This document shows positions 17,000 to 34,206 of a stretch of DNA of 64,000 bases, piece after piece (position 1 is the stretch's first letter; every line of letters begins with the position of its first letter). The stretch comes from Seonamhaeicola sediminis. Lineage in GTDB: Bacteria; Bacteroidota; Bacteroidia; Flavobacteriales; Flavobacteriaceae. The translations under genes and the position numbers were made by a program. The notes under the pieces were generated by a model. That model saw only the letters and a list, made by a program, of their open reading frames with translations. It did no database searches and was not told the origin of the DNA. The stretch spans positions 508,030-572,029 of the forward strand of contig NZ_SMZJ02000004.1 of NCBI RefSeq assembly GCF_004358095.2. The letters are read 5' to 3'.

Positions 17000-17042
17000 C
17001 TAATGTATTTATAGAAATAGATTTATGCAATGATATAAATCA
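17000..17042 (-). promoter_or_regulatory. Stress-regulon promoter A: palindrome TGATATAAATCA plus -7 box TACATTAG (hsp20)
   Basis: The operator-like palindrome is at 17031-17042. The minus-strand box TACATTAG is at 17007-17000. The centres are 33 bp apart, which puts the palindrome near -41 as in class II Crp/Fnr activation. The Hsp20 ATG is 36 bp past the box. Confidence 0.65.
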
Positions 17043-17151
17043 GTCTGGAAATAAGAAGGTTAATGAATAACTATGCTAGGTTTAAGATAATTTTATATTA
17101 ATTTAGAAATTTAAGGTCGATACTAAATTAATGTCTCATGAACTTATAATT

Positions 17152-18525
17152 TTATATCATCACTTTATCAATCTGTAAAAGCTTTGGTATCGTAGAGTTC
17201 CAGTTATAAACATGTTTTATCTTTAGTCTAAGCGCATCTAAGGCATTAGGTTCTCCGTGAGTTAAATAAATGCCTTCTGGTATATTTTTAATTTGGCTCA
17301 TCCATTCTAATAGTTCGTTTTGATCTGCGTGAGCCGATAAACTTTCTATGTTTTTAATAGTGGCTTTTACAGGATAATATTTTCCGAAGAAACGAATTTC
17401 ATGAGCGCCTTCTTCCAATTGCCTTCCTCTGGTTGCTTCAGCTTGATAGCCTACTAACAAAACAGTTGTTTTTGGATTGTCTATTAGTTGTTGAAGATAG
17501 GTAAGAACCCGCCCGCCAGTAACCATACCACTTCCAGCAATTATAATTTTTGATCTTTTGTCATCTATGGTTTCCCAGGTTTCTCTATACGATTGAATAA
17601 TGTTTATATGATTACACATAGCATTATAATCCTGAGTTGATAATTTATGCCATTTAGGAAAACGATTAAAGACTTCTAATACATTATTACCCATTGGACT
17701 ATCAATAAAAATAGGAATATTAGGTATTTTATTTTTTTGATAAAGTTTCCATAAAATGAACATTAAAGTTTGTAAACGCTCTACTGCAAAACTTGGAATA
17801 ATTAGATTTCCCTTCTTTAAGATGATTTCTTTTACAAGTTCAGTAATGGTGTTTTCTATGTTTTCCTTAGGGTGAAGTTTATTGCCATAAGTGCTTTCTA
17901 TAAATAAAAAATCTGCCCATTCAGGTCTCTTAGGATCTTCTAACAAATAATCATTAGGTCTTCCAATATCTCCTGAAAAAACAAAACGTTTACCATTTAT
18001 ATCTAATTCTATAAAAGTAGCTCCAATAATATGGCCGTTATATTGAAAACGGTATGAAATATTTTGAGAAAGTGTAACCCATTTACCAATCATTTCAACA
18101 TTGAATAATCTTAATGTTTCTTCAACGTCTTCTTTGGTGAAAAACGGTAGTGCAGGATTATGCTTTGAGAATTTTTCTTTGTTTGCCTTTTCAGCATGTT
18201 CAGCGTGTATTTTTGCGCTGTCCTTTAGAATTATTTCTGCTATGGCCAACGTGGGTGCTGTACCAATAATTTTACCTCTATAGCCTTGTTTTATTAGTCT
18301 GGGTAAGTAACCAACATGATCTAAATGTCCATGTGTTAACAACACCACATCTATAGTTTGAATATCAAAAGGTATATTATTCCAGTTAAGTTCCCTCAAT
18401 TCTTTTAAACCTTGAAACATACCACAATCTATTAGGATATTTTTCTCTGAAGTTTCTATTAAAAACTTAGACCCAGTAACCACCCCGGCACCACCTAAAA
18501 AGTGTATGTTTACATTTTTATTCAT
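17152..18525 (-). CDS. MBL-fold beta-CASP ribonuclease-like metallohydrolase
   Basis: 457 aa. The metallo-beta-lactamase motif TH65-G-H67-L-D69-H70 is intact near the N-terminus, followed by GDIGRP, the beta-CASP insertion (STYGNKLHPKE ... PSFAVERLQTLMFIL ... GSGMVTGGRVLTYLQ) and an RMMBL tail (SLSAHADQNELLEWM ... YLTHGEPNALDALR). The family (CPSF73/RNase J relatives) cleaves RNA. Its start overlaps the end of the ATP-cone protein gene by 8 bp, suggesting coupled synthesis. It is the last gene of the operon started by promoter B at 22,478-22,520. Confidence 0.92.
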   Translation of the reverse strand: MNKNVNIHFLGGAGVVTGSKFLIETSEKNILIDCGMFQGLKELRELNWNNIPFDIQTIDVVLLTHGHLDHVGYLPRLIKQGYRGKIIGTAPTLAIAEIILKDSAKIHAEHAEKANKEKFSKHNPALPFFTKEDVEETLRLFNVEMIGKWVTLSQNISYRFQYNGHIIGATFIELDINGKRFVFSGDIGRPNDYLLEDPKRPEWADFLFIESTYGNKLHPKENIENTITELVKEIILKKGNLIIPSFAVERLQTLMFILWKLYQKNKIPNIPIFIDSPMGNNVLEVFNRFPKWHKLSTQDYNAMCNHINIIQSYRETWETIDDKRSKIIIAGSGMVTGGRVLTYLQQLIDNPKTTVLLVGYQAEATRGRQLEEGAHEIRFFGKYYPVKATIKNIESLSAHADQNELLEWMSQIKNIPEGIYLTHGEPNALDALRLKIKHVYNWNSTIPKLLQIDKVMI

Positions 18526-19372
18526 GGTTTTGATTTTTACAAAGCATTTTTATTTCATTGGTAATCTTTTCCTTCCGTATTTCTGAAATTCCTAGATGAT
18601 CTAGGTAAAAAACATCATCAATAAGTTCTCTACATAGTACTACATCTCGACTTAATAGAAATTGTTTTTCTCTTTTAGTTAGTAGTGTTGAAACCGTAAT
18701 AGGGTAGAGCCCTAAGCGATCAATACGGTCTTTTAAACCATCATCTTTCGGGTAATCCCAACTAAGTAAATACAGGTCAGTACAATTGCCGTATTGAATA
18801 GCATCTTCTGTAAAACGTGTGTTTGTAACTACCCAACCTTTGGTAAGTACAGATGTGTTTTTAGAATTTCTATTCCAATGTGCTTGTACATCTTTATAAC
18901 GAGAATTAATATATAGAGGAATTTTTACATTACAATTGAGTCCTTCTTCGTTATGAAATTTACATTCAACAATGGTTGTCTCATTATTTTTATGGGCTAC
19001 TATATCTATTTCGTGAGTTACACATTGCCCTTGAAGAATCTTGCCAACTTCTGTTCTATATCCTGAATACGTTAAAATAGAGCTTACAAAACGTTCAAAA
19101 GGAAAGCCTGTTGGTCCCAATTCATAGATTGCTTTTTTTAGTTTGTATTTAGAGGCCAGATAACTTTTCTTTCTTTTGAGTAAAGCGTAAGCTCTATTGT
19201 AAATTTCGTTTGTAGAGATACCATGATATAATTCATCCCTTACTTTATTGATTATTTCAGTTATTGTTTGAGAATCTGCTCCAGTTCTCTTAAGCGAAGC
19301 TCTTAGCTTGTTTAATGAAAACTTAACTGTTTTGCCAGAAGTTTTTATAATATCAATTGTATTAGCTTCCAT
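18518..19372 (-). CDS. ATP-cone domain fused to a Mrr/PD-(D/E)XK-type nuclease-like domain
   Basis: 284 aa from the ATG at 19372; an in-frame ATG 45 bp further up exists, but the family starts close to the ATP-cone. Residues ~5-90 are an ATP-cone (IIKTSGKTVKFSLNKLRASLKRTGA ... EIYNRAYALLKRKK), the nucleotide-sensing module of ribonucleotide reductases and NrdR. Residues ~90-230 contain GFPFERFVSSILTYSGY and H-EID123IVA ... TTIVE136-C-K138, the active-site spacing of Mrr-type restriction-endonuclease-like folds. There is no methylase or specificity subunit nearby. It looks like an adenine-nucleotide-sensing nuclease, co-expressed with an RNase and USPs. Confidence 0.8.
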   Translation of the reverse strand: MEANTIDIIKTSGKTVKFSLNKLRASLKRTGADSQTITEIINKVRDELYHGISTNEIYNRAYALLKRKKSYLASKYKLKKAIYELGPTGFPFERFVSSILTYSGYRTEVGKILQGQCVTHEIDIVAHKNNETTIVECKFHNEEGLNCNVKIPLYINSRYKDVQAHWNRNSKNTSVLTKGWVVTNTRFTEDAIQYGNCTDLYLLSWDYPKDDGLKDRIDRLGLYPITVSTLLTKREKQFLLSRDVVLCRELIDDVFYLDHLGISEIRKEKITNEIKMLCKNQNHE

Positions 19373-19425
19373 TTTAGATGTTTTTCTTAAATTACTAGAA
19401 CTACAATATTTTAACAAACATTTGT

Positions 19426-19824
19426 TTAGTTAAAATAGGTTTTTACCCAAGCTATGACTTGATTATTGGTCATGCTATCAGCTTTTATTACTTCTGTAAC
19501 TTTAGATTCTAATTCTTTATAGTTATTTGATAGTTCCTTATGAAATTTGAATCCAGTTTCAGCAGGACCAAAAAGAACTATAGCCTCAGCATCTTTAATT
19601 TCTGTTGCTAAATCTTTAAAATATGCTTTTATTTGGTGTTTTTCACGTTCTAAGTACTTACTATCTTGAACAACATCTTGAGGGCCTCCTTTAAATTTTG
19701 TTCCAGCGCCACCATGAATTTTAAAGTTCTCTACATTTGATAAAACTGTTTTAAAATCTGCTACGCCATCATGTAAACAAACTATATGGGCTTTTTCTTT
19801 ATCTAGCCAAACTCCTATTTTCAT
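19426..19824 (-). CDS. Small protein resembling bacterial eRF1-like (BaeRF) domains
   Basis: 132 aa. MKIGVWLDKEKAHIVCLHDG is a nucleotide/RNase-H-like first strand, followed by GGAGTKFKGGPQDVVQDSKYLEREKHQIKAYFKDLATEIKDAEAIVLFGPAETGFKFHKELSNN. The VLFGPAE-G-x-F-x(3)-L motif is typical of proteins similar to eRF1 domain 2/3 or so-called host-attachment families, thought to act on ribosomes. The assignment rests on motif memory only. It is 17 bp after one USP gene and 53 bp before the ATP-cone gene in one operon. Confidence 0.55.
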   Translation of the reverse strand: MKIGVWLDKEKAHIVCLHDGVADFKTVLSNVENFKIHGGAGTKFKGGPQDVVQDSKYLEREKHQIKAYFKDLATEIKDAEAIVLFGPAETGFKFHKELSNNYKELESKVTEVIKADSMTNNQVIAWVKTYFN

Positions 19825-19841
19825 GTTTTATAATTTTAAAA

Positions 19842-20696
19842 TTAATTTCTTAGGTCATGCATAACTAGTATGGGGACTTTTGAATGATAACTAAGTTCTT
19901 TTGCTAAAGGCTGCATTAACAAACTTTTAAAAAAGAAATGTTTTTTATTAATAAAGGCTATCATATCACTAGCCCTGCTTTCCACAAAACAGTTTATAGC
20001 CACTGGTATTGCTGTGAAACTAATGGTATGAAAGGAGTGATCTACATCTTCAAAACACTCTGCCAATAGTTTTTTATTATTTATTTGTTTTTTATCAAGT
20101 TGCGCTTCTTCTAACACATGTAAAATTAGTATAGATGCTTTACAATTTTTAGCTAAATGGATAAGATGGCTTAATTCATTTCTTTTTAAATGTGTATTAT
20201 AACTTGTTGGAAAAACAATTTCTTTTGGCACATTATGTTTTGCCAATTCAGGCACTATAATTACAGGGCAATTCCTAACGTTTTCCATAACATTAAAAGC
20301 AGTACTACCATAAATTACTGTTTTGGAACCAGTTTTTCCTTTAGTTCCCATAACAATGATGTCAATATCCCTTTCTTCCACTATGTTTTTTATGGCTTCA
20401 ACTGTGCTATTAAATGTTGAAATAACCTCAAAATGATGTTTAGGATTATGTTGTTTATTTAGAGTTAACATATTTAATACTTTAGCTAATTTATTTTCAG
20501 ATTCCAACTTAGCGGTTTCATACATTTCACTGCCAGGTTCCATGAGTATTAAACTGTCTATTATGTTATTAGTAAACGAAAAGACATTCAAAATATAAAA
20601 GTTACAATAATCGTTTTTGTATAACTCTAATGCATAATTTATAGCATGCCATGCATTTTTAGAGAAATCTGTGGGTAACAAGATTTTACGTTTCAT
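19842..20696 (-). CDS. Universal stress protein, tandem two-domain (USP 1)
   Basis: 284 aa, two fused USP domains. The N-terminal half begins MKRKILLPTDFSKNAWHAINYA and keeps a full ATP-binding loop, MGTKGKTGSKTVIYGST (G-x2-G-x9-GS). The C-terminal half (EIVFPTSYNTHLK ... MIAFINKKHFFFKSLLMQPLAKELSYHSKVPILVMHD) has lost that loop, as usual in Bacteroidota USP pairs. It probably binds ATP and acts in starvation or oxidative-stress survival. It is third of three USPs in the operon. Confidence 0.92.
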   Translation of the reverse strand: MKRKILLPTDFSKNAWHAINYALELYKNDYCNFYILNVFSFTNNIIDSLILMEPGSEMYETAKLESENKLAKVLNMLTLNKQHNPKHHFEVISTFNSTVEAIKNIVEERDIDIIVMGTKGKTGSKTVIYGSTAFNVMENVRNCPVIIVPELAKHNVPKEIVFPTSYNTHLKRNELSHLIHLAKNCKASILILHVLEEAQLDKKQINNKKLLAECFEDVDHSFHTISFTAIPVAINCFVESRASDMIAFINKKHFFFKSLLMQPLAKELSYHSKVPILVMHDLRN

Positions 20697-20775
20697 AATT
20701 CATTATTTACCTTGAATTAATTAGAAAATATAATAAAGTAATGACTACTATTAACCTTCATAATATTTTATAAGC

Positions 20776-21606
20776 CTAAGCAGAAATAACTAAAAACGGT
20801 ATTGTAGGTTGGAAACCTATTTTTTTTATTACAGGCTCTTTGGTAAACTTTTCAATAATACTTTTTTTATAATTTACCATGGCAAGTATATCAATATTCA
20901 ACTCCTCAATAAAATCATTAATCTCTGTTGTTTTATTTGCATAATCTGGCATCCAATGAAATGAGTGTTCGTAATTTGATAAGAATTTATCAAGCACTGA
21001 TAAATTGCGTTCTTGTTTATCATCTAAATGTTCTTTTTCTTCTATATGAAGAACTCTAATTTTAGAATTATACAGTTCAACCAATTCTTTTAATGAGTTT
21101 AATTCCTTATCTGTATAAAGCTTATTGAAATCTGTTGGGAAGGCAATTTGATGAGGTTTTACAAAATCAAATTCATCAGGAACTATTAATAAGGGACAAA
21201 GCTTATTGCTATTAATAACATGCACCGTATTACTTCCAAAGAAAAACTCTTTTGAAGCGGTACTACCTTTAGTACCCATAACAATCATATCAATATTTAA
21301 TTCTTTGATAGATTTTTTAATAGCAGTGGTTAGATCTAGGGTACTCAATATTGTTTTAAATTCATGGTTTGCATTAGCATTACATGTTTCAGCTAATTCT
21401 TTAAGTGCTTTTAACTCTTTTAAAGACTCTTTCTTCATTGTTTCTAATAGTTTGTTAGAAAGGTTTGATAGTGTAGAAACCTTTATTGTTTGTGAGTTTA
21501 AAAAGTAAAATGTACATTCTTTATTAGCATAAAGTTTTAGAGCGTAAACCGCAGCACTCCAAGCATTGTCTGAGAAATCTGTTGGTAATAAAATATTTCT
21601 TTTCAT
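20776..21606 (-). CDS. Universal stress protein, tandem two-domain (USP 2)
   Basis: 276 aa. N-terminal domain starts MKRNILLPTDFSDNAWSAAVYA; the ATP loop MGTKGSTASKEFFFGSNT is intact. C-terminal domain (IAFPTDFNKLYTDKELNSL ... MVNYKKSIIEKFTKEPVIKKIG) lacks it. It lies 11 bp after USP 3 and 79 bp before USP 1; I see no separate operator palindrome in the 79-bp gap, so it is likely the same transcript. Confidence 0.92.
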   Translation of the reverse strand: MKRNILLPTDFSDNAWSAAVYALKLYANKECTFYFLNSQTIKVSTLSNLSNKLLETMKKESLKELKALKELAETCNANANHEFKTILSTLDLTTAIKKSIKELNIDMIVMGTKGSTASKEFFFGSNTVHVINSNKLCPLLIVPDEFDFVKPHQIAFPTDFNKLYTDKELNSLKELVELYNSKIRVLHIEEKEHLDDKQERNLSVLDKFLSNYEHSFHWMPDYANKTTEINDFIEELNIDILAMVNYKKSIIEKFTKEPVIKKIGFQPTIPFLVISA

Positions 21607-21617
21607 AGCATTTGTTT

Positions 21618-22457
21618 TTATTGAGCAGGAATCACCAAGAATGGAATGTTTAAGTGAAAACCTATTTGGTTGATTGTAGATTTAAAAAATAGATTATCAA
21701 AAAATGAGTGTTTATTATTAATCATAACCAATAGATTAATGCGAGCATTTAATTGAAAATCACTGATGGCCTGAGGGACCGTTTGGTTGCTCACACTATG
21801 GAACATATGTGAAATATTTTTAAGGTATGTCTCTAGTTTACTTTTGTTTATGGTTTGTTTTTCAGAGAGATCATAGCCATAAGACACATTTAAAACATTA
21901 ACTCTAGTTTTATAAAGAGAGAGAATATCAATGATAGGTTTCATGTAAATATCATTATAGTCAATCTCATAATCTGTTGGAAATAAAACTTCATGTGGTG
22001 CTTCAAATGTATATTTCTCGGGTATTGCTAAAATGGAGCATTTAACATTTTTAAAAACATGAACGGTATTAGAACCAAATAAAACTTCTTCAATCCCAGA
22101 AGCCCCTTTTGTACCCATTATAACGTAGTCTATATTTTCCTCCTGAACCATATCCTTTATTTCTGTTACTAGAGTATTAAAAACTGCTTTAACTTCTATG
22201 GAGTGCTTGGGGTTTTTAAAAGTTGTTTCAATTTGTTCTTTTAATAGGTCAAACTTTTTAAGTGCTTTTTCCATCACAGCGTCACCTAAGCCATATTGAG
22301 ATGGATTAACTAAAACAAACTCTGTGTGATAAATCATTGGTGTGTAGGTGTGTAGCAAATAGAATTTACAAACCTTATCTTTAAAAAGTTGCAAGGCATA
22401 GCTTATGGCATTCCAGGAATTGCTTGAGAAATCGGTGGGTAAAAGTATTTTTTTCAT
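21618..22457 (-). CDS. Universal stress protein, tandem two-domain (USP 3)
   Basis: 279 aa from the ATG at 22457 (MKKILLPTDFSSNSWNAI). A longer frame up to 22508 is possible but would begin upstream of the predicted transcription start. The ATP loop MGTKGASGIEEVLFGSNT is intact in the N-domain; the C-domain is degenerate (MINNKHSFFDNLFFKSTINQIG). It is the first gene of the operon running to 17,152, driven by promoter B. Confidence 0.92.
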   Translation of the reverse strand: MKKILLPTDFSSNSWNAISYALQLFKDKVCKFYLLHTYTPMIYHTEFVLVNPSQYGLGDAVMEKALKKFDLLKEQIETTFKNPKHSIEVKAVFNTLVTEIKDMVQEENIDYVIMGTKGASGIEEVLFGSNTVHVFKNVKCSILAIPEKYTFEAPHEVLFPTDYEIDYNDIYMKPIIDILSLYKTRVNVLNVSYGYDLSEKQTINKSKLETYLKNISHMFHSVSNQTVPQAISDFQLNARINLLVMINNKHSFFDNLFFKSTINQIGFHLNIPFLVIPAQ

Positions 22458-22477
22458 GGTTACGAATGCTTTATAAC

Positions 22478-22520
22478 TAAAGTTAGGTGCCAAAAAAAAA
22501 ATACACAATGATATATATCA
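22478..22520 (-). promoter_or_regulatory. Stress-regulon promoter B: palindrome TGATATATATCA plus -7 box TAACTTTA (USP/nuclease operon)
   Basis: A perfect 12-bp palindrome lies at 22509-22520 and the minus-strand box TAACTTTA at 22485-22478. The centres are 33 bp apart, identical to promoters A, C, D and E. The USP 3 ATG is 21 bp past the box. Confidence 0.7.
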
Positions 22521-22580
22521 GATTAAGCCAGATCTATAAGGAGTATAGTCTTTTGTTTTTCAGGTTTTTATAACGAATTA

Positions 22581-22616
22581 AAAAAGGGAGTATTAATAAA
22601 AAAACACTCCCTTTTT
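22581..22616. terminator. Bidirectional intrinsic terminator
   Basis: An 11-bp stem (AAAAAGGGAGT / ACTCCCTTTTT) with a 14-nt A/T loop lies upstream of promoter B. It would insulate the USP operon from transcription coming from 23,095 and beyond. Confidence 0.75.
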
Positions 22617-22663
22617 CAATCACAATACAAGTTGTGACTTAATTAATAGCCTTTAAATAAACA

Positions 22664-22698
22664 GAAACAGGAAGATAGAACTTCCTGTTTCCTTTTTT
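22664..22698 (+). repeat. Hairpin copy 1: GAAACAGGAAG / CTTCCTGTTTC followed by a T-run
   Basis: An 11-bp perfect stem with a 6-nt loop, then CTTTTTT on the plus strand, so it would work as a plus-strand terminator. The same arms recur 171 bp away. Confidence 0.75.
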
Positions 22699-22834
22699 GA
22701 AATATTTAATTCTGTCAACTAGCCTTTTCTAATCATTAATATTCCCAATAGTTATATTAAATTTTTGGATAACTAATAGATTTAAATATTTCTGAAACAG
22801 TCTTTTTTTGCAATACAAAAAACTGTATTTTTTA

Positions 22835-22862
22835 GAAACAGGAAGCAAAGGCTTCCTGTTTC
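22835..22862. repeat. Hairpin copy 2: GAAACAGGAAGC / GCTTCCTGTTTC
   Basis: A 12-bp perfect stem with a 4-nt loop. The arms are the same as copy 1 but the loop and flanks differ, so the arms rather than the whole segment are conserved. No T-run follows, which makes a plain terminator less likely. Confidence 0.75.
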
Positions 22863-23094
22863 CTTAAGGTAATCAATATTATTGTTCAACTTTCGGTTTT
22901 CTTCAACATAACCTTTTTAACTAAAAACTATGTTGATGTTTTCATTTTAAACAATAGCTTTAAATACCTTGTTTTGTATTATTAAAAAAATAACACTTAA
23001 GATTTATCAATATGTATTAGAACTTTTTAATTATAGAGCCAATATATGCTTGAAAATATAAATAGTAAATGATATTCCTCAGTTTTCATGAAAT

Positions 23095-23481: not shown

Positions 23482-23492
23482 AGTTTTTTTAA

Positions 23493-24335: not shown

Positions 24336-24354
24336 CTTTTGGTATTTTCTCATA

Positions 24355-24397
24355 CTAATGTATGTAGTAGACACTTAAAAGGAAATGATATCGGTCA
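24355..24397 (-). promoter_or_regulatory. Stress-regulon promoter C: palindrome TGATATCGGTCA plus -7 box TACATTAG (USP 4)
   Basis: Imperfect palindrome at 24386-24397; the minus-strand box TACATTAG at 24362-24355 is the same octamer as in promoter A. Centre-to-centre distance is 33 bp. The USP 4 ATG is 20 bp past the box. Confidence 0.65.
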
Positions 24398-24417: not shown

Positions 24418-25458
24418 CTAACAGATTTTTTTAAGCTTTTCTATATCAATTACTTTAATGTTTCTCCCATCTGCTTTAATGATGCCTTCTTTTTTAAAAA
24501 TTGATAATGTTCTAATAAAAGTTTCTGGAGATATACCAGCAACACTGGCTAAATCATTCCTAGATATTTTTATGAGCTTCTCTGGATTGCGGTTCATTTT
24601 TTCGGCAAATTTCAAAATGGTAGCTGCCGTTTTCTTATTAACAGAGCTATAAGCCATTTGAATTAGCTCTTTCTTTACTGAAGATAGATTGTCTGCTAGC
24701 AATTCAGCAAGCTCAATTACAACTTTATGATTTTGATCTAGTAGTTTCTTAAATTCTAAAATTGAAATACCAACCAATTTGGTGTCCTCAATTGCAGAGG
24801 CTGTTTCTCTGTGAGGTGTATTTTGAGTAAAAGAGTTGTATCCAAATAAATCATCTTCTTTGTACAAAGCCGTGACAAGTTCCTTACCTAATTCGTTTAT
24901 TTGAAAACATTTAACAGCACCTTTACTTATTAAATAAATATAGTTAGAGTGGTCTCCTTCTCGATAGATAATTTCATCTTGGTTAAATGCAAATTCGTCA
25001 CCAAAATCATCAAAAAAAATCTTTAAATCATTAAGTGTTTTTATTTTATCGTCATTTTCTGTGGGCAGTTTATCTTTTTCTTTTAGAATAGATACTTTTG
25101 CCAAACGGCTTTCAATAGCACTTATAAGATCATCTTCAGAGAATGGTTTAGTAATGTAGTCATCGGCACCTAAATTCATACCTTTCCTAACATCTTCATG
25201 CTCTGTTTTAGCAGACAAGAATATGAATGGGGTGTACTTTGTTAGTTTGTTTTTATAAAGTGCTTTTAATACGCCATAGCCATCTAGTTCTGGCATCATT
25301 ATATCACATATAATAATGTCTGGTTGATGTTTTTTTGCTAATGCTACGCCCGTTTTTCCGTTTGATGCAGTTAAGACTTTATAGTCAGACAGTTCTAAAA
25401 GTTCTGCTGTATTTTCTCTTAAAACAACATCATCCTCTATTAACAAAATTGTTTTCAT
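24418..25458 (-). CDS. Hybrid response regulator: receiver domain fused to Crp/Fnr cNMP-binding and HTH domains
   Basis: 346 aa. Residues 1-120 form a canonical receiver: acidic pair E8-D9-D10, phosphoacceptor D52 (IICD52IMMP), S82 (FIFLSAK) and K104 (DDYITK104PF). Residues ~145-260 are a cNMP-binding-type beta-roll (IYREGDHSNYIYLISKGAVK ... DLFGYNSF ... RETASAIEDTKLVGI) that lacks the full cAMP-contacting set. Residues ~265-340 are a Crp-type winged helix with recognition helix GISPETFIRTL. The Glu and Arg match the FNR positions that read TTGAT, so a TGAT-type site is expected. It starts 32 bp after the LOV kinase gene; it is the likely regulator of promoters A-E. Confidence 0.92.
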   Translation of the reverse strand: MKTILLIEDDVVLRENTAELLELSDYKVLTASNGKTGVALAKKHQPDIIICDIMMPELDGYGVLKALYKNKLTKYTPFIFLSAKTEHEDVRKGMNLGADDYITKPFSEDDLISAIESRLAKVSILKEKDKLPTENDDKIKTLNDLKIFFDDFGDEFAFNQDEIIYREGDHSNYIYLISKGAVKCFQINELGKELVTALYKEDDLFGYNSFTQNTPHRETASAIEDTKLVGISILEFKKLLDQNHKVVIELAELLADNLSSVKKELIQMAYSSVNKKTAATILKFAEKMNRNPEKLIKISRNDLASVAGISPETFIRTLSIFKKEGIIKADGRNIKVIDIEKLKKIC

Positions 25459-25490: not shown

Positions 25491-27386
25491 TTATATTTCA
25501 TGTTGATTTTGTTCACTATTATTTGGAAAAGTAATGATGAAAGTAGAGCCCATATTTTCTTTACTCTGAAATTTTATAGTACCTCCCAAGTTTTCTAAGT
25601 GATTTTTTACTATATTTAATCCTATGCCAGTACCTTGCGTATTCATTACGTTATCTGCTCTAAAATACCTTTGGAATATTCTTTCTTGATCTTTTTTGGG
25701 TATACCAATGCCTTTATCTTTTATTATTAAGGTGGTAAACTCATCACCCTGTTTAATTTGTAAATCTATACAGCTCTCCTCAGGTGAATATTTAATGGCA
25801 TTGTGTAATAGATTTGAAAAGATTAACTGAATTATCTTTTCATCTTGGTAAACTGATATGTCATCAATATCTTCTGGATAATTTATTTTCTGCCCTTCTT
25901 TTAATAGCATGTTATAATTGTAAACCACCTCATTAACCACCTTACTCAATTTAAAATTGGTAAACTTATAATTTGCTTTACCTGATTCTAATTTTTCAAC
26001 AGATAAAAAGTCATTTAAAATATTATTTAAAAAATGAACCTTATCGGTAATTGTTTTTATGTGTTTATTTCTTTTTTCTTGATGTTCAGTTAACTGGTAT
26101 TTACTCAAAAGCTCTGTAGAGGTTAAAATACCACTTAAAGGGGTTTTAAACTCATGAGAAACCAGAGATAGAAATTTAGATTTTAATTCATTTAGCTCTT
26201 TCTCCTTGCTTAAGGCATTCTCTAATTGCTGCGTTCTTAATTCTACTTCGGTCTCTAATTTGGTGGTATAATTTTTTCTTTCTGTAATGTCTAAAACAAT
26301 AGCAACAAATACTTTTTTTTCTCCCAATTCTGAAATTTGCAAATGAACTTCTACGGGATAGGTTGAGCCATTTTTTCGCTGGTGTACAATTTCAAACTCA
26401 ATCTTATCCGTGTTTCCTTTTAACAGAATATCAATAGATTCTTTTAAATTAGATTGGTTGCTTATAGTAGTAATGTCTAAAGGAGTCATTTCCTTCAATT
26501 CACCTAAACTATACCCAATGTTTTTTTTTGCACCGTAATTGGCATTTAAGAAGATTAATGTTTCAACATCAAAGACATAAATTTCGTTTAGTGATTCATG
26601 AAAAATGGTTGCTAGATGATGTCGTTCTTCTTCAACTTGTTTACGTTGGGTAACGTCGTTTTGTATTCCAATAAAATTTGTTACGGTTCCTCGTGTATTG
26701 GTTATAGGAAAAACATAAAGATCATTCCAAAACATAGTACCGTCTTTTTTATAATTACGTAACGTAGCCTGACAACTCTCACCATTTTTGATAGCCTCTC
26801 TAAGCTTTTTTAGTGGTAGTTGTTCTCGATCTTTACCCTGCAAAAACCGGCAATTATGATTGAGTATTTCTGCATCAGAATATCCAGTAAGTTCTTGAAA
26901 GGCAGAATTGAAATATACCACAGGGTTATCGGGTTTTAAGGCATCAGTTATTATAATACCATTTCTGGCAGATTGCAACGCTTTTGTTCTAAGCATTAGG
27001 CTTTCTTCAATCTTTTTTCTTTCAGAAATATCTCTAATTAAAGCCATAACATAGGTTTTGTTATAGATTGAAAATAGATTCAATTCAATATCCATTGGAA
27101 AAACAGTACCATCTTTTTTCATGCCATAAACATCTCTGGTTTCACCCATCTTTCTACGCGAGCCTCTTTTTAAAAATATGTTGAAAAAAGTAGTATGCTT
27201 TTTTCGGTAATCTGCAGGAAGAAGGAAACTTAGTTTTTTATCAATCAACTCATTTTTTGTATATCCAAAAATATTTTCAGCGGACCCATTAACCTCCATA
27301 ATTTTTTGATGATTATCAAGAATGATAACACCTTCAAAAACGGCTTCTAACAGAATATTGAATATTTCTTGGTCCTGATTGAACAT
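25491..27386 (-). CDS. Multi-PAS histidine kinase with a LOV blue-light sensor domain
   Basis: 631 aa, no transmembrane segment, so cytoplasmic. PAS 1 spans ~8-125. PAS 2 (~135-250) is a LOV domain: HNC179RFLQG is the photoactive-Cys motif that forms the flavin adduct, and the flavin-contacting NYKKDGTMFWN (211-221) and IGIQNDVT (239-246) are also present. PAS 3 spans ~257-372. A coiled-coil linker leads to HisKA with the phospho-accepting His411 (SLVSH411EFKTPLSGI), then an HATPase with N529 and the DKGIGIPKKDQ and GTGIGLNIVK boxes. It should phosphorylate the downstream receiver-Crp hybrid. Input by blue light or flavin redox is inferred from the intact Cys. Confidence 0.93.
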   Translation of the reverse strand: MFNQDQEIFNILLEAVFEGVIILDNHQKIMEVNGSAENIFGYTKNELIDKKLSFLLPADYRKKHTTFFNIFLKRGSRRKMGETRDVYGMKKDGTVFPMDIELNLFSIYNKTYVMALIRDISERKKIEESLMLRTKALQSARNGIIITDALKPDNPVVYFNSAFQELTGYSDAEILNHNCRFLQGKDREQLPLKKLREAIKNGESCQATLRNYKKDGTMFWNDLYVFPITNTRGTVTNFIGIQNDVTQRKQVEEERHHLATIFHESLNEIYVFDVETLIFLNANYGAKKNIGYSLGELKEMTPLDITTISNQSNLKESIDILLKGNTDKIEFEIVHQRKNGSTYPVEVHLQISELGEKKVFVAIVLDITERKNYTTKLETEVELRTQQLENALSKEKELNELKSKFLSLVSHEFKTPLSGILTSTELLSKYQLTEHQEKRNKHIKTITDKVHFLNNILNDFLSVEKLESGKANYKFTNFKLSKVVNEVVYNYNMLLKEGQKINYPEDIDDISVYQDEKIIQLIFSNLLHNAIKYSPEESCIDLQIKQGDEFTTLIIKDKGIGIPKKDQERIFQRYFRADNVMNTQGTGIGLNIVKNHLENLGGTIKFQSKENMGSTFIITFPNNSEQNQHEI

Positions 27387-27425
27387 AATAGACGATGTTT
27401 TTAGTATGCTATGAAATTTTATATA

Positions 27426-27499
27426 TAAAAATACAAATTACTACTTTGGCTATGACTGACTTATGTCATATGAAATAACCTAACAAGTATGTAGTTTTA
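27426..27499. promoter_or_regulatory. Stress-regulon divergent promoter D: palindrome TGACTTATGTCA with a -7 box on each side
   Basis: The palindrome is at 27457-27468. To the left (minus strand) TATTTTTA lies at 27433-27426, serving the LOV kinase operon. To the right (plus strand) TAGTTTTA lies at 27492-27499, serving the TerB-like gene. Both boxes are centred exactly 33 bp from the palindrome centre, so one site can act at the same position on both promoters. Confidence 0.7.
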
Positions 27500-27520
27500 G
27501 TAAAACTAAATTTTGTAGAC

Positions 27521-27928: not shown

Positions 27929-27995
27929 GTTAAGAGAAAGGTTTGTTATATGAATTACTCTGTGTTTTAATCCTTTTTTAAAAACAATTATTTAG

Positions 27996-28880
27996 ATGGC
28001 ATTTATAGACTATTATAAAATACTTGGTATTTCAAAAACTGCCAATGAGGCAGACATTAAAAAAGCCTACCGGAAATTGGCTCGCAAATATCATCCAGAT
28101 TTAAACCCTAATGATAAGGTAGCCGAAAAAAAATTCAAAGAAATTAATGAAGCCAATGAGGTATTGAGTCATCCTGAAAACAGGAAGAAATATGATCAAT
28201 ATGGTGAGAATTGGCAACATGCTGAAGAATTTGAGAAAGCCAAACAGCAACAGCAATATAAAGGCAGTTATGCTAGTTCTGGAGGGTATGCAGAACAGGA
28301 TTTTTCAGATTTTTTTGAACACATGTTTGGCGGGGCATCATCTGGAGCCAGTGGAAGACAAGTGAAATTTAGAGGACAAGATTATAATGCAGAATTACAA
28401 TTAACCCTTCAGGATGTTTATACAACTCATAAACGCACACTAACAGTAAACAATAAAAATATACGAATTACTATACCTGCTGGTGTAGAAAACGGTCAGA
28501 TAATTAAAATCAAAGGGCATGGTGGACAAGGCGTTAATGGGGGGCCTAATGGTGATTTATACATTCAGTTTTCAATTTCAAACCCAACAAATTTTAAAAG
28601 AGATAAAAACAACCTCTATGTTGATGTAGATTTAGATTTATATACAGCTATATTAGGAGGAGAACTTACCATTGATACTTTTGACAGTAAGGTTAAGCTC
28701 AATATAAAACCAGAAACACAAAATGGAACTAAAGTTAAGTTGAAGGGAAAGGGCTTTCCAAAATACAAAAAAGAAAACCAGTTTGGCGACCTTTATGTTA
28801 CTTACCATGTAAAAATACCAACCAACTTAACTGCTAAAGAAAAGGAATTAATGAACGCATTAAAAAATTTAAGAAAGTAA
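27996..28880 (+). CDS. cbpA: CbpA-type DnaJ co-chaperone
   Basis: 294 aa. J domain at 1-70 with the HPD motif in KYHPDLNP; a Gly/Ser-rich linker (QQYKGSYASSGGYAEQDFSDFFEHMFGGASSG); then two beta-sandwich substrate-binding domains (ITIPAGVENGQIIKIKGHGGQG ... GDLYIQFSI). It lacks the Cys-rich zinc finger of DnaJ, as expected for CbpA. It stimulates DnaK on stress-damaged or aggregated proteins. The TAA overlaps the ATG of the modulator gene by one base. Confidence 0.93.
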   Translation: MAFIDYYKILGISKTANEADIKKAYRKLARKYHPDLNPNDKVAEKKFKEINEANEVLSHPENRKKYDQYGENWQHAEEFEKAKQQQQYKGSYASSGGYAEQDFSDFFEHMFGGASSGASGRQVKFRGQDYNAELQLTLQDVYTTHKRTLTVNNKNIRITIPAGVENGQIIKIKGHGGQGVNGGPNGDLYIQFSISNPTNFKRDKNNLYVDVDLDLYTAILGGELTIDTFDSKVKLNIKPETQNGTKVKLKGKGFPKYKKENQFGDLYVTYHVKIPTNLTAKEKELMNALKNLRK

Positions 28881-29170
28881 TGAAAGAACAGGATTTAATA
28901 TCAGTACAATTACTTTGTAGACGTTATAATGTTCCAAATTCGTTTATAATAAAACTACAGGAATACCAACTTATTGAGGTTATTGTTAGACAAGATGATT
29001 TCTTTATTAATGTAAAACAGATAAAAAAAATTGAAAAACTAATGCGTTTACATTATGACCTAGATATCAATTTAGAGGGAGTAGATGCTATTTATAATTT
29101 ATTGCAACAAGTAGAGGATTTACAAGAAGAAATAAAGTTTCTCAAAAATAAGTTAAACCGTTATGAGTAA
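28880..29170 (+). CDS. cbpM: CbpM-type chaperone modulator (MerR-like fold)
   Basis: 96 aa. QDLISVQLLCRRYNVPNSFIIKLQEYQLIEV resembles the MerR_2 fold of CbpM, followed by a helical tail LLQQVEDLQEEIKFLKNKLNRYE. CbpM binds the J domain of CbpA and inhibits it. Overlap of one base with cbpA supports a coupled pair. The assignment follows both sequence and position. Confidence 0.88.
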   Translation: MKEQDLISVQLLCRRYNVPNSFIIKLQEYQLIEVIVRQDDFFINVKQIKKIEKLMRLHYDLDINLEGVDAIYNLLQQVEDLQEEIKFLKNKLNRYE

Positions 29171-29176
29171 AATAAT

Positions 29177-29773
29177 ATGCTTACGTTTAAAAACTTTAAC
29201 ATAGCAGATTGGTTTTCATTTTACAGGGTAGTAGCTGCGCCATTCTTGTTGGTGCTAATCTGGTTTGACTTAAGGTTGGTTTTTACATGGTTTTTAATGG
29301 TTAGCTATCTTACCGATGCTCTTGATGGTTATTTAGCCAGAAAATTAAAAATTACAAGTCCTAGGGGTTCTCAGCTAGATTCTATTGGAGATCAAATAAC
29401 GCTTACTATAGGATTAATAGGGTTGTTTTATTTTGAAACACAATTCATTAAATTAAATCTTGTTTTAATAGTAATTGCATTTGTGCCTTACTTTGTACAA
29501 ATGCTTTTAGCTTATTTTAAATACGGTAAAGCAACCGCTTTCCATACATATTTGGCTAAGTTTTCAGCATTACTCCAGAGTCTATTTATTTTATGGTCCT
29601 TATTCTTTTCTCCTGAGTACTTATTGTTTTATGTTATGATAGTTGTTGGTTTACTGGAGACTTTTGAGGAAATAACACTCATTTTCATGTATGACAATTG
29701 GGTGTCTGATGTTAAAGGGTTTTATTGGGCTTTGCGCGATAAGCGAAGACTAAAGCATAACAATTCCAAATAA
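29177..29773 (+). CDS. CDP-alcohol phosphatidyltransferase family membrane enzyme
   Basis: 198 aa, several transmembrane helices. The family signature is complete: D-x2-DG-x2-AR-x8-G-x3-D-x3-D in TDALDGYLARKLKITSPRG followed by SQLDSIGD, with both metal-binding Asp pairs. These enzymes move a phospho-alcohol from CDP-diacylglycerol to an acceptor to make phospholipids; the acceptor (glycerol phosphate, serine, inositol or other) is not readable. Its place in a stress operon beside a metallophosphoesterase suggests membrane remodelling. Confidence 0.88.
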   Translation: MLTFKNFNIADWFSFYRVVAAPFLLVLIWFDLRLVFTWFLMVSYLTDALDGYLARKLKITSPRGSQLDSIGDQITLTIGLIGLFYFETQFIKLNLVLIVIAFVPYFVQMLLAYFKYGKATAFHTYLAKFSALLQSLFILWSLFFSPEYLLFYVMIVVGLLETFEEITLIFMYDNWVSDVKGFYWALRDKRRLKHNNSK

Positions 29774-29780
29774 TTGTGTT

Positions 29781-30989
29781 ATGCGTAGCTACTCAATATT
29801 TACTATATTACTTTTATGTTTAGTTATTTTAGGTGTAGATATTTTGGCTTTTTATTGGCTACAATCTATTACTAAATTATTACCTTCATTTTTTGAAGTA
29901 CTGATACATATTTTATTCTGGTTTTTTACCTTAGGACTAATATCAGCTATTTTAACCCTTAAAGTAACTTTAGATGATATTCCTCCAAAACGAAAGCATG
30001 TACTTATATCGTCATTATATGGACTTACTGTAGCATCTTTCATTCCCAAAATCATATTTGTAGTAGTTATATCCATATTGTTTTTTACTAATTATGTGTT
30101 TTCAGAACAGGCTTCAGTTTTAATTATTCCTTTAATAGGTTTGTTGTCTGGGGTGATACCGTTTTTTGCTGTGTTGTATGCCATTTTTAAAGCAGTGCAT
30201 CGTTTTAAAATTCATCATCATAAAATACGTTTTAATAAACTACCAATAGTGTTTAAGGGTTTAAAAATAGTTCATATATCAGATCTGCATTTAGGAAGTT
30301 TCAATTACCGTTACAAAATTTTAAATCCAGCTATAAAGCTCATTAATAATCTACATCCAGATTTAATATTTTTTACAGGAGACATAGTGAATAACTATGC
30401 TTGGGAACTTGTTGGTTGGGAACACGTTTTTAATAAACTAAAAGCAAACATTGGTAAATATGCAATTTTGGGAAACCATGATTATGGCGATTATTCCAAT
30501 TGGAAAAGTGGAGAAGAGAAGTTTATAAATTTTATTAAAATCAAACAATTTTATAAAGATATAGGATTTTCACTTCTTCTTAATGACTCTGATACTATTG
30601 AGAGGAATAATGAAAAGATAGCCATTATTGGTGTTGAAAACTGGGGTAAACCACCCTTTAATACCTATGGAGATATTGCTGTTGCGTTGAGAAATTGTAA
30701 TAACATTCCTTTTAAAATTCTACTGTCTCACGATCCTACCTTTTGGGAGGAAATGGTTGTTAAAGAAACAAATATTTCACTTACGCTTTCAGGGCATACA
30801 CATGGTATGCAACTAGGTTTCCAATTTAAAAACTTTAAATGGAGCCCCGTAAAATATAAGTACAAACATTGGGCTGGTTTGTATGAAAAAAACAATCAAT
30901 TCTTATATGTAAATAGAGGGTTAGGGTGGTTAGGTTTTCCTGGTAGGTTGGGGATGCGTCCAGAAATCACCTATTTAGAACTAAATTGA
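29781..30989 (+). CDS. Membrane-anchored metallophosphoesterase (YaeI-like)
   Basis: 402 aa. Four N-terminal transmembrane helices (~1-145), then a calcineurin-like domain with the full metal-site set: IVHISDLHLGSFN, FFTGDIVNN, AILGNHDYGDY, LLSHDPTF and LSGHTHGMQLG. Related YaeI/LpxH-type enzymes act on lipid phosphates or nucleotides; the substrate here is not known. It is 7 bp after the phosphatidyltransferase, so the two probably work on the same lipid. Confidence 0.88.
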   Translation: MRSYSIFTILLLCLVILGVDILAFYWLQSITKLLPSFFEVLIHILFWFFTLGLISAILTLKVTLDDIPPKRKHVLISSLYGLTVASFIPKIIFVVVISILFFTNYVFSEQASVLIIPLIGLLSGVIPFFAVLYAIFKAVHRFKIHHHKIRFNKLPIVFKGLKIVHISDLHLGSFNYRYKILNPAIKLINNLHPDLIFFTGDIVNNYAWELVGWEHVFNKLKANIGKYAILGNHDYGDYSNWKSGEEKFINFIKIKQFYKDIGFSLLLNDSDTIERNNEKIAIIGVENWGKPPFNTYGDIAVALRNCNNIPFKILLSHDPTFWEEMVVKETNISLTLSGHTHGMQLGFQFKNFKWSPVKYKYKHWAGLYEKNNQFLYVNRGLGWLGFPGRLGMRPEITYLELN

Positions 30990-31126
30990 TTAAATTAATT
31001 GTACAACTGATTTTTATCATTGTTCTAGTTTTAAAAATAGGGTAGTTTAATTCATTTACATAAAAAGAGTACCGTTTTGTTAAATTATAATTCTGCAATT
31101 CTGAATAAGCTAAAATACATTCACAA

Positions 31127-31576
31127 ATGAAAGATTTAAATAAATTTGAAAGTTCCTGCGTTTTAAAAAACAACTACATTGGTTATTTGTCTTATATAAG
31201 TAATGGTAGTCCTTATGTGGTTCCAATCACTTACTATTACTACGAGGAAGGAAATTGTTTAATTAGCTATTCTGGAGAAGGGCATAAAATAGATGCTATG
31301 CGTTCAAATGATCTAGTCTCTTTTTGTGTGACTGAAATAGATAATGTCAATAAATGGGATTCTGTAATGGTACAAGGTCAATTTAAGGAACTTGAGGGTA
31401 CCTATGCTAAACAACAATTACATAAGTTTGTTTTAGGAGTTAAAAAATTGATATTTAAAGAAAGTAACAAACACCCAGATTTGATAAGTGATTTTTCTAG
31501 CAAAGTAACCTCAGGTGCACCCATAATATATGCCATAAACGTATTGGGTATAACTGGAAAAAGTAGAGAATACTAA
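31127..31576 (+). CDS. Pyridoxamine 5'-phosphate-oxidase-like flavin split-barrel protein
   Basis: 149 aa. Split-barrel flavin-binding features: CVLKNNYIGYLSYISNGSPYVVPITYYYYEEGNCLISYSGEGHKIDAMRSNDLVSFCVTEID and WDSVMVQGQFKELE. Such proteins bind FMN or F420/heme-like cofactors and often reduce toxic quinones, nitro compounds or biliverdin. No operator of the stress type lies at 33 bp upstream of its TACATTCA box, so co-regulation is not supported although it sits within the island. Confidence 0.85.
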   Translation: MKDLNKFESSCVLKNNYIGYLSYISNGSPYVVPITYYYYEEGNCLISYSGEGHKIDAMRSNDLVSFCVTEIDNVNKWDSVMVQGQFKELEGTYAKQQLHKFVLGVKKLIFKESNKHPDLISDFSSKVTSGAPIIYAINVLGITGKSREY

Positions 31577-31590
31577 GAGAAAAACAATAA

Positions 31591-32598
31591 TTAGTCTTTA
31601 AATTGCTGTTGTTCCTTATTTAATTTGGCTTCTCGTTTTTGTTTTCGTTCTAGTTTTCTAAAATAGCCTCTGGTTAAAAAATTATGCTTCAAGGCTTCCA
31701 TGTTTTTGTTAAATTTATCTGCTCCATTATTAATGTTCTTTATGGCTTCATCTAGATTTTTAACAAATATTGTGTCATTAGCAAGGTAATTTATAGCACC
31801 ATCTCCATCTTTTAAACTCAATAAGGTTTTGTTTAAATTAATGACTACCTCATTAATATTTTTACTGGAGGCTTCAAGGTTGTCAATAACCTGTTTTACT
31901 TTTTTACTCTCTAAAGTGTCTTTTAGTAATACCCCAGCAACACTTTTATCTAAATTCAAATTATTAACCAGTTGATTTATTTCACCCATAGTTTTATTGG
32001 CTTCTATACTTGTAAGTTTCAAATTATTTATGGTTTGGCGTATATTTTTGGCAGTAATAGAATCATTTATAAGCATGCCTATTGTGCCATTTCCGTTAGT
32101 TATAGAGTTTGTAATATCAAGTAGTTTTGCTGTTAATAAAGCAGCATTTTCATTGGTTACATTCAAGGTATTAAGCATGTCATCTGTACCAATTTTAGAA
32201 TACGACTTGATTATGTCACCTTGAGAAATGACGGTAGTATTGCCATTACCTGGTATAATATTAACAAGCATATTGCCTACTAATCCATCGGTTCCTATAG
32301 TGGCAATAGCATCCTTTTTAATATGTTTCACCATTTTTTCATCTATAGCCATTATAACATTAATGGTAGAATCGTTAATCATGTTTATTCTTTTTACAGT
32401 TCCTACGTTTATTCCTGAATACCTTACGTTATTGCCCTGTAAAAGGCCGTTTACATTGTTAAAATTAGCGCTTATAGAAAAAGTTTTAGTGAACATATTT
32501 TTACGTTGCCCTATTAAGTAAATAGCAGTAATAAAAAGGAGTAAACCAACAATAACAAAGATGCCTAGTTTTAATTTTTCATTGCTTGTTTTTTTCAT
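31591..32598 (-). CDS. mlaD: MlaD/MCE-family lipid-transport substrate-binding protein
   Basis: 335 aa. One N-terminal transmembrane helix (LKLGIFVIVGLLLFITAIYLIG), then the MCE domain (FSISANFNNVNGLLQGNNVRYSGINVGTVKRI ... IGTDGLVGNMLVNIIPG) and a long helical tail. It should hold and pass phospholipid or another lipid between inner and outer membranes as part of an ABC-type Mla complex. Third gene of an operon, 14 bp after the ATPase. Confidence 0.9.
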   Translation of the reverse strand: MKKTSNEKLKLGIFVIVGLLLFITAIYLIGQRKNMFTKTFSISANFNNVNGLLQGNNVRYSGINVGTVKRINMINDSTINVIMAIDEKMVKHIKKDAIATIGTDGLVGNMLVNIIPGNGNTTVISQGDIIKSYSKIGTDDMLNTLNVTNENAALLTAKLLDITNSITNGNGTIGMLINDSITAKNIRQTINNLKLTSIEANKTMGEINQLVNNLNLDKSVAGVLLKDTLESKKVKQVIDNLEASSKNINEVVINLNKTLLSLKDGDGAINYLANDTIFVKNLDEAIKNINNGADKFNKNMEALKHNFLTRGYFRKLERKQKREAKLNKEQQQFKD

Positions 32599-32612
32599 AA
32601 CTAAAGTTTTTA

Positions 32613-33368
32613 TTATTTAAAAAAGGCTCTTATTTTATCATCTTCAGAAGCTTCTAATTCTTTAAAAGAGCCTTCAGCATAGTTTATACCATCTACAAGT
32701 AAAATCATGCGTTCAGATATGACCCGCGCGCAATCTACATCGTGTGTTATTATCAAGGATGAGGTTTTGTATTGTTTTTGAACATGTCTCATGAGTTCAA
32801 TAATTTCTTTAGATGTTATTGGGTCTAAACCACTAGTAGGTTCATCATACAAAATAATTTTAGGTTTTAATATCAGTGTTCTAGCCAAGGCTATTCTACG
32901 TTTCATACCCCCCGAAAGCTGTGAAGGCATTAAATCTATAGCCTTCAACAAACCAACACTATTTAAGGTTTCTTCTACAAGTGGAGTAGTGTCTTTTAAA
33001 TTACCAAACTTATTTTTGTGTCTACGTAATGGGAATTCCAGATTTTCTCTAACGGTCATAGAATCATATAAGGCACTACCTTGAAATAAAAAACCGATGT
33101 TTGTTCTTAGGGCATCTAATTCTAATTGATTGAGGTTTAGCAGGTTTTTACCCATAACATGGATGCTTCCTGAGTCAGGCTCCATGAGTCCAACCAAACA
33201 TTTTATCATAACCGACTTTCCAGAACCCGATTTACCCATAATAACGAGGTTTTCACCTTCAAAAAGCTCTAAATTAAACCCATTCAAAACATGATTATCA
33301 CCAAAGCTTTTTCGCAAATCTTTAATTTTTAATATCAACTTCTTTTGTATGTTTTCAATGATAGTCAT
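32613..33368 (-). CDS. mlaF: MlaF-type ABC transporter ATPase
   Basis: 251 aa. Walker A (IMGKSGSGKSVMIKCLVG), Q-loop (GFLFQGSALYDSMTV), signature LSGGMKRRIALART, Walker B (IILYDEPTSGLDP) and the H-loop (SLIITHDV) are all present. It powers the MlaE permease and sits 3 bp after it. Confidence 0.93.
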   Translation of the reverse strand: MTIIENIQKKLILKIKDLRKSFGDNHVLNGFNLELFEGENLVIMGKSGSGKSVMIKCLVGLMEPDSGSIHVMGKNLLNLNQLELDALRTNIGFLFQGSALYDSMTVRENLEFPLRRHKNKFGNLKDTTPLVEETLNSVGLLKAIDLMPSQLSGGMKRRIALARTLILKPKIILYDEPTSGLDPITSKEIIELMRHVQKQYKTSSLIITHDVDCARVISERMILLVDGINYAEGSFKELEASEDDKIRAFFK

Positions 33369-33371
33369 TTC

Positions 33372-34142
33372 TTAAATTTCAAAAAATAAGTCTGTTATAA
33401 ACACAGCTATAAAATCTAAAACAAAAAGTAGCATTGATGAAAACACCACTGCCGAATTAGCAGCTGCACCAACGCCAACGGTACCTTTTTCACAATAATA
33501 GCCTTTATAACACCCTACAAGGCCAATGGCAAACCCAAAGAAAAAAGTCTTAATAGTAGCAGGAATGATATCTCCAAAGGCTATGGAATTAAATACTTTG
33601 TTAAAGTATAATTGAAAAGATACATCTCCTTTAATGTTTTCTACCAAATAAGATCCATATAAGGCAATAGCATCTCCAAAAATTACTAAAATAGGTAAGG
33701 TAAGAGTTGCAGCTAAAACTCTTGTAACCACTAGAAATTTGAATGGATTTGTGCCAGAAACTTCCATGGCATCAATCTGCTCAGTGACTCGCATGGACCC
33801 TAATTCAGCACCTATGCCAGAGGCTATTCTGCCAGCAAATGTAAGCGCTATAATAACGGGGCCAATTTCTCTTATTATAGAAATACTTACCATTGAAGGC
33901 ATCCATGACTCTGCACCAAATTCTTCTAATGTAGGGCGGGTTTGTAGTGTAATTACCAAGCCAATAATAAAACCAGTTACACTAACTAATAAAAGTGATT
34001 TGTTTCCTATGCTATAGCACTGTCTTATAAGTGCTTTAAACTCAAAAGGTTTGGAAAATAATTCTCTGAAAAACCGAAGAGCAAAATATGTAAGCTCACC
34101 AATTTCTATAAAAAAGCACTTTATAAGGCTTGATTTTGCCAT
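33372..34142 (-). CDS. mlaE: MlaE-family ABC permease
   Basis: 256 aa. Multi-pass membrane protein with the MlaE hallmarks SVTGFIIGLVITLQT and IIREIGPVIIALTFAGRIASGIGAELGSMRVTEQIDAME. First gene of mlaE-F-D. The operon has promoter E with the stress palindrome, so lipid transport to or from the outer membrane is tied to the same regulon as Hsp20 and the USPs. Confidence 0.93.
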   Translation of the reverse strand: MAKSSLIKCFFIEIGELTYFALRFFRELFSKPFEFKALIRQCYSIGNKSLLLVSVTGFIIGLVITLQTRPTLEEFGAESWMPSMVSISIIREIGPVIIALTFAGRIASGIGAELGSMRVTEQIDAMEVSGTNPFKFLVVTRVLAATLTLPILVIFGDAIALYGSYLVENIKGDVSFQLYFNKVFNSIAFGDIIPATIKTFFFGFAIGLVGCYKGYYCEKGTVGVGAAANSAVVFSSMLLFVLDFIAVFITDLFFEI

Positions 34143-34163
34143 AATATATAACCTCCAATCTAA

Positions 34164-34206
34164 TAAATTTACATATTAATTGTTAGACACTGAATGACAT
34201 ATATCA
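34164..34206 (-). promoter_or_regulatory. Stress-regulon promoter E: palindrome TGACATATATCA plus -7 box TAAATTTA (mlaEFD)
   Basis: Palindrome at 34195-34206; the minus-strand box TAAATTTA at 34171-34164; centres 33 bp apart. The mlaE ATG is 22 bp past the box. Confidence 0.65.

Follow-up and report, generated by a model that had tools for sequence, protein, structure and literature searches.

A receiver-Crp hybrid regulator and its candidate class II promoter sites in a stress gene island of Seonamhaeicola sediminis and other Flavobacteriaceae

A stretch of 64 kb from the genome of Seonamhaeicola sediminis (64,000 nucleotides, contig NZ_SMZJ02000004.1, positions 508,030 to 572,029; below referred to as the window) contains an island of stress-related genes, at the centre of which lies the gene for a regulator that unites a receiver with Crp-type domains (the hybrid). 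We consider it likely that the island represents a two-component, FNR-like stress regulon that is run by the hybrid via class II sites. The promoters share a palindrome and a -7-like box at one fixed distance. This geometry, its conservation, the clustering of the sites around the hybrid and their tie to both the presence and the phylogenetic group of the hybrid are established by the sequences, and many genera within one bacterial family show the same arrangement. From the same data we infer that the hybrid binds the sites, activates transcription, is phosphorylated and responds to a particular signal. The analysis yields a concrete rule for operator and spacing in Crp/Fnr-type promoters that can be tested throughout a large and poorly annotated family, and by which micro-oxic and stress regulons become predictable from sequence.

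Palindromes and -7-like boxes in the window

The palindrome TGAYNNNNRTCA occurs 10 times in the window; shuffled sequences averaged 3.8 occurrences, with 7 as the highest count. A box of the form TAnnTT[AT][AG] follows at a gap of exactly 23 bases, equivalent to 33 bp between the two centres, in 7 of the 20 palindrome-strand readings, whereas any other gap between 5 and 59 yielded two such readings at most. Given a box rate of 0.010 per position, as derived from 14 intergenic stretches picked by hand, the probability of the count at gap 23 is about 7e-10 (uncorrected for the 55 gaps). The possibility raised with the original prediction, that the pairing might be equally frequent in intergenic DNA, is contradicted by the spacing profile. 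When only TAnnTT was demanded (the relaxed pattern) eight matches were found in the window, seven of them in the island; a relaxed match at 13682 lies within a coding gene and was taken as chance.

The original prediction had named five TGAYN4RTCA palindromes and six boxes. All five palindromes are present where they had been placed, and the centre of each of the six boxes indeed lies 33 bp off the palindrome centre. Three of the pairs precede genes for heat-shock and universal stress proteins (USP) on the minus strand. More specifically, the operator palindrome TGATTTATATCA of the hsp20 promoter (17031-17042, identified by pattern scan) and the box TACATTAG (17000-17007), separated by the 23-base gap, stand before hsp20 (16470-16964); the palindrome TGATATATATCA (22509-22520) and the box TAACTTTA (22478-22485) lie upstream of the genes for USP3, USP2, USP1, an eRF1-like protein, an ATP-cone protein and an MBL RNase; and the palindrome TGACCGATATCA (24386-24397), located between the hybrid and USP4 genes, is combined with a box TACATTAG (24355-24362) in the promoter of USP4. 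A further pair on the minus strand, TGATATATGTCA (34195-34206) and TAAATTTA (34164-34171), is found upstream of mlaE-mlaF-mlaD. In a divergent region, the palindrome TGACTTATGTCA (27457-27468, plus strand when read towards the TerB-like/CbpA/CbpM operon) has the box TAGTTTTA on the TerB-like side (27492-27499, plus strand) and a doubtful box TATTTTTA on the side of the kinase gene (27426-27433, minus strand). The name TerB is the label of the original prediction; neither Pfam nor NCBIfam gave a match for the TerB-like protein. A seventh pair had been overlooked and consists of TGATTTTTATCA (31008-31019) and TAGTTTAA (31043-31050), both on the plus strand and upstream of a Pyridox_ox_2 gene (31127-31576).

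The two-fold half-site operator TGA...TCA is thus present before the island genes. Transcription starts mapped in a flavobacterium place TAnnTTTG, the -7 box of sigma-A, at positions -12 to -5 (PMC9723704). A box at that position is centred at -8.5, and a palindrome centre 33 bp upstream therefore falls at -41.5. This is the class II position of Crp/Fnr activators. The proposal that these are class II Crp/Fnr-type promoters is supported in this way, and with start positions deduced from the published box the window sites are best read as putative class II activator sites.

The hybrid regulator and the adjacent kinase

The hybrid (24418-25458, minus strand) was matched by the Pfam families Response_reg (103.9 bits), cNMP_binding and HTH_Crp_2, the latter two above the curated cut-off. 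The receiver residues E8, D9, D52 and K104 and the recognition-helix residues E312 and R316 are invariant in 14 aligned rows. A gene for a PAS/LOV histidine kinase (domains by Pfam; 25491-27386, minus strand) adjoins that of the hybrid. In fact, a histidine kinase gene is adjacent in 53 of 54 rows, with a 4-base overlap in 17, and on the basis of this adjacency we propose that kinase and hybrid may constitute a two-component pair.

The genome encodes six HTH_Crp_2 proteins, two of which (C47:138984 and C34:304646) have the E..IR recognition-helix pattern of the hybrid. The former is encoded near ccoN (L031), the latter has an FNR-like CxxCxxxxC N-terminus (L032). In a tree of the Crp parts, for which the bootstrap had not settled, two groups of hybrids are well supported: group A (40 rows, support 98/97), which includes the hybrid of the window, and group B (10 rows, support 97/93). 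Group B and the FNR paralogues are joined at 84/65 only, and long branches were flagged. The group B hybrids L123, L124, L127, L132, L134 and L136 have adjacent kinases of about 970 to 1110 amino acids and operators of, or near, TGACCTAGGTCA; hsp20 genes are found in the stretches around the first five of these.

The motif NCRFL, which we take to be a LOV signature, is found in 15 of the 53 adjacent kinases, namely in the close relatives of the window's kinase and in part of group B. Light was rejected as the general signal on this ground, and would at most be an extra input. Homologues of ccoN or hemN lie no more than about 10 kb from several hybrids, both within the family and in Mucilaginibacter, Arcticibacter and Sphingobacterium (some of these names were read from translations). 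Judged from gene content, we infer a core signal that is low-oxygen or redox-linked. The hybrids in the three last-mentioned genera (L164, L168 and L172) are full-length and have hemN homologues in the surrounding stretch. Sites with gap 23 are absent around them, and the operator or the box may thus differ there.

Conservation of the sites around the hybrid

In stretches of 19.9 kb around the hybrid in 20 other genera we found 65 strict sites (those with the full box), against 2.3 expected when the background rate of each genome is applied (with rounded genome sizes), and 19 of the 20 stretches had at least one. In the pooled gap profile of these genera 90 matches fall at gap 23, and none of the other gaps between 8 and 49 has more than 6.

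The presence of a site before orthologous genes was counted in 42 group A islands, which derive from 38 genomes or named records; L158-L160 had been assigned to group A by identity and not by the tree. For each gene the best copy with at least 35% identity was taken, and 320 bases upstream were required. A site precedes USP4 in 34 of 38 islands, the TerB-like gene in 22 of 26, hsp20 in 10 of 12 and mlaE in all four that were counted. Lower fractions were obtained for USP1 (10/22), USP3 (8/24) and the Pyridox_ox_2 gene (2/7), and the operon-internal genes for the ATP-cone protein and the MBL RNase had no site (0/22 each). The distances between site and start codon are similar as well; for USP4 the distance is 17 to 23 bases in 28 of 34 cases.

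The promoter that had been predicted on the side of the LOV kinase is not supported. The box is there, and yet a site is found before the kinase gene in only 1 of 41 relatives, and the box in the window is therefore probably lineage-specific or due to chance. Of the two boxes that palindrome 27457 had been proposed to serve, the one on the TerB-like side is supported and the one on the kinase side is doubtful. Autoregulation of the kinase-hybrid operon was likewise rejected as a conserved feature (kinase 1/41, hybrid 0/42).

When the sites of the genome (45 by the relaxed pattern) were ranked with a model built from the island sites of other genomes, and with the remaining sites of this genome as background, five of the seven window sites were among the top eight. 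The Pyridox_ox_2, mlaE and kinase-side sites took ranks 2, 13 and 35, respectively. The model suggests that targets of the hybrid outside the island might include a universal stress protein gene (C49:48002, L049), L005 and the haem-protein gene of L037.

Distribution over the genome and the family

According to the original prediction the sites formed a closed, island-wide regulon. This could not be maintained, as the sites are not confined to the island. The relaxed pattern has 45 matches in the S. sediminis genome, a few of them inside genes, compared to 7 for the pattern read backwards. The strict pattern was found in 137 of 149 Flavobacteriaceae genomes, with 2149 matches in total against 80 for the backward control. 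At an E-value cut-off of 1e-60, and with no more than 14 candidates scored in any genome, the hybrid was found in 66 of the 149 genomes; for six genomes only, its absence was checked again by means of the Crp part. Strict sites number at least 6 in every hybrid-bearing genome, with a median of 22. The strict pattern also occurs in 71 of the 83 genomes that yielded no hybrid (median 6, maximum 36). The geometry is thus genome-wide and family-wide, and the regulon is not closed.

For many sites of the S. sediminis genome (L001-L056) the distance to a gene is about 50 bp or less. With names read from translations, here and in the following, these genes encode HemN, pyruvate formate-lyase, Ppdk, citrate synthase, a ribosome-hibernation factor, haem proteins and another universal stress protein. 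Some sites are more distant, with ccoN and pta at about 210 and 85 bp, respectively. The set of promoters with the 23-base gap in this genome is apparently a low-oxygen regulon. The genes for the cbb3 oxidase and for haem synthesis are reported to go up under oxygen limitation in a flavobacterium (PMC9723704), and this fits the sites before the ccoN and hemN homologues. In L088, L089, L092, L103, L107 and L115, sites with gap 23 precede genes for similar, probably exported proteins with N-termini of the form DG.AAIKK..WGF. Such proteins are a likely further member of the regulon, although none was seen with a site in the window.

Proposed assignment of the island sites to the hybrid

The sequence pattern of a conserved regulatory system is strong, and the mechanism that we would attach to it is the following. 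The neighbouring PAS/LOV kinase would phosphorylate the hybrid at receiver residue D52. The phosphorylated hybrid, bound as a dimer with its centre at -41.5 and facing a weak -7 box of sigma-A, would then activate the genes for Hsp20, the universal stress proteins, the TerB-like/CbpA/CbpM proteins, MlaEFD (lipid transport) and the Pyridox_ox_2 protein. The island sites would mainly serve the hybrid, whereas paralogues of the FNR type would drive the micro-oxic genes elsewhere through near-identical sites and would probably share part of those in the island.

Control by the hybrid, as put forward in the original prediction, is supported indirectly by three lines of evidence: the clustering of sites in 20 genera described above, the hsp20 genes and the group-specific cores of the operators. 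Comparison of the 30 best hsp20 loci from hybrid-bearing genomes (input from 58 of 66) with the 30 best from hybrid-lacking genomes (input from 58 of 83) yielded 25 loci with a site in the former set and none in the latter. The ATP-cone protein of the island follows the hybrid as well, being present in 55 of the 66 hybrid-bearing and 7 of the 83 other genomes, in a count that includes a more distant type (about 50% identity). Four of these seven have the distant type only, and no gap-23 sites are found in their stretches. Group A and group B hybrids co-occur in eight genomes, and there the sites near group A are AT-rich centrally while those near group B tend towards TGACCTAGGTCA. The inner four bases include a G or C in 10 of 47 sites near A versus 28 of 39 near B (p = 3e-6), by operator features that were chosen after viewing the sites; G022 was excluded because its B stretch has no site, and the B row of G047 falls outside the well-supported clade. 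Since the A and B islands share one genome and one set of FNR proteins, the difference suggests that each hybrid reads the island in which it is encoded. Finally, the second base after TCA is a T in 40 of 69 island sites versus 9 of 63 sites in five hybrid-lacking genomes (p = 2e-7). This was the strongest flank feature tried, and the 63 are out of 64 sites among the matches listed, one near-duplicate from G044 having been dropped.

Several observations weigh against the assignment to the hybrid. The hsp20 genes of the hybrid-lacking genomes are 35-51% identical to that of the window and mostly more distant paralogues, so that the zero partly reflects the absence of an island-type gene. Three genomes without the hybrid, also on rechecking (G008, G066 and G107), have an ATP-cone protein of 71-77% identity together with three, one and one gap-23 sites, which in G008 and G107 precede USP3-like genes. 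The hybrid is thus not strictly needed for such islands to keep their sites; probably FNR paralogues use these sites, or else the hybrid was lost recently. The difference between A and B is less sharp when counted by genome (7 of 8 pairs in the expected direction, Wilcoxon p = 0.055), and one of the five operator features (R = G) showed none. Moreover, group B has a recognition helix (GTATETAIR) much like the one in the ccoN-linked FNR paralogue (GTATESAIR), the probable sites of which have AT-rich cores, and the change in the operator is therefore not explained by the helix alone. The stretch of G042, finally, has no strict site.

Some of these points would be expected if a general FNR-like regulon owned the island sites, with the paralogues C47:138984 and C34:304646 bound to them and the hybrid acting elsewhere or as a modulator. 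The identical palindrome and gap throughout the genome and the family, the E..IR pattern of both paralogues, the sites retained in the three hybrid-lacking islands and the sites before ccoN and hemN homologues around some hybrids (names partly read from translations) all agree with it. Nevertheless, we regard this explanation as rather unlikely in view of the hsp20 sites in the hybrid-bearing set only, the different operators that flank A and B hybrids inside the same genomes and the island flanks, which are unlike those in the hybrid-lacking genomes. Another factor might also activate the genes, with the hybrid mainly a repressor at these sites. Repression is within the Crp/Fnr repertoire too, and still we hold this to be very improbable: a centre at -41.5 beside a weak box (positioned by the published map) is the usual geometry of class II activation, and in 97 island sites no single base accounts for more than 60% of any spacer column from the fifth base after the palindrome onwards, so that no second promoter element is visible. 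Chance co-occurrence in AT-rich intergenic DNA, for which the loose box, the 68% AT of the DNA and the relaxed matches inside genes might be quoted, can practically be dismissed given the spike at a single gap both in the window and across the 20 other genera (a profile that already contradicts chance), the family-wide excess over the backward control and the complete lack of matches at gaps 22 to 25 in 1.09 Mb from 65 receiver-only loci, with the caveat that these loci stem from many phyla in which promoters are of other kinds. The receiver-only loci belong to a set of 80 obtained with receiver-based search patterns, most of which are not hybrids (65 control and 14 hybrid loci; L171 is in neither).

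With the hybrid as the favoured regulator of the island, a more elaborate arrangement can tentatively be pictured. It is possible that two parallel, insulated FNR-related kinase-Crp systems, each with its own operator (TGATnTATATCA versus TGACCTAGGTCA) and stress island, co-occur beside the classical FNR paralogues, and that in some lineages LOV adds a blue-light input, so that light and low oxygen would jointly set a survival state that is DosR-like in logic.

Relation to known systems

FNR of E. coli and relatives binds the site TTGAT-N4-ATCAA. The hybrid is like FNR in its Crp-type domains (by Pfam), in the TGA-N6-TCA core of its putative sites and in their deduced class II position. It is unlike FNR in that the N-terminal cysteine cluster for [4Fe-4S] is missing and a receiver domain and an adjacent kinase are present instead. 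By its domain composition the hybrid would be classified as a Crp/Fnr-family response regulator, not as FNR in the strict sense. Taken together this suggests that an FNR-like activator has come to respond to phosphorylation in place of oxygen, and that its operators vary with the group of the regulator. The best Crp-family match of residues 156-344 among the matches listed, which cover 60 solved structures, is PDB 2gau (E = 5e-16), a chain of 232 residues that aligned to the Crp part of the hybrid only.

In the FixLJ-FixK and RegBA-type redox cascades a sensor kinase also leads to Crp/Fnr-type promoters. There the kinase works via a separate response regulator, whereas the hybrid unites the receiver and the Crp domain in one protein. 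Mycobacterial DosR resembles the system proposed here in that universal stress proteins and small heat-shock proteins are controlled by a two-component system. DosR has an output domain of the NarL type and a different operator, whereas the output domain of the hybrid is HTH_Crp_2 and a NarL/FixJ-type domain is absent. The comparison with DosR can thus hold for the logic only and not for the ancestry. In the literature, FixLJ is treated in PMC4999443, and the CRP/FNR homologue of one Flavobacteriales genome bin is treated as MalR-like in PMC8510549. A search by title and the start of the abstract, with most subscription journals outside it, gave no description of the regulon of the hybrid.

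Other features of the window

Neither Rfam, at gathering scores, nor a tRNA scan yielded anything in the window. At 39393-40016 a gene (39441) encodes a short Crp-like protein with cNMP_binding as its sole Pfam match, and a palindrome TGACGGACGTCA lies just upstream of it; this palindrome (39393) was rejected as a site, the box being absent at gap 23. Beside hsp20, two neighbouring and similar genes at 14668-15955 are without a Pfam or NCBIfam match. Their products are probably lipoprotein-like, and the second has relatives in several of the islands.

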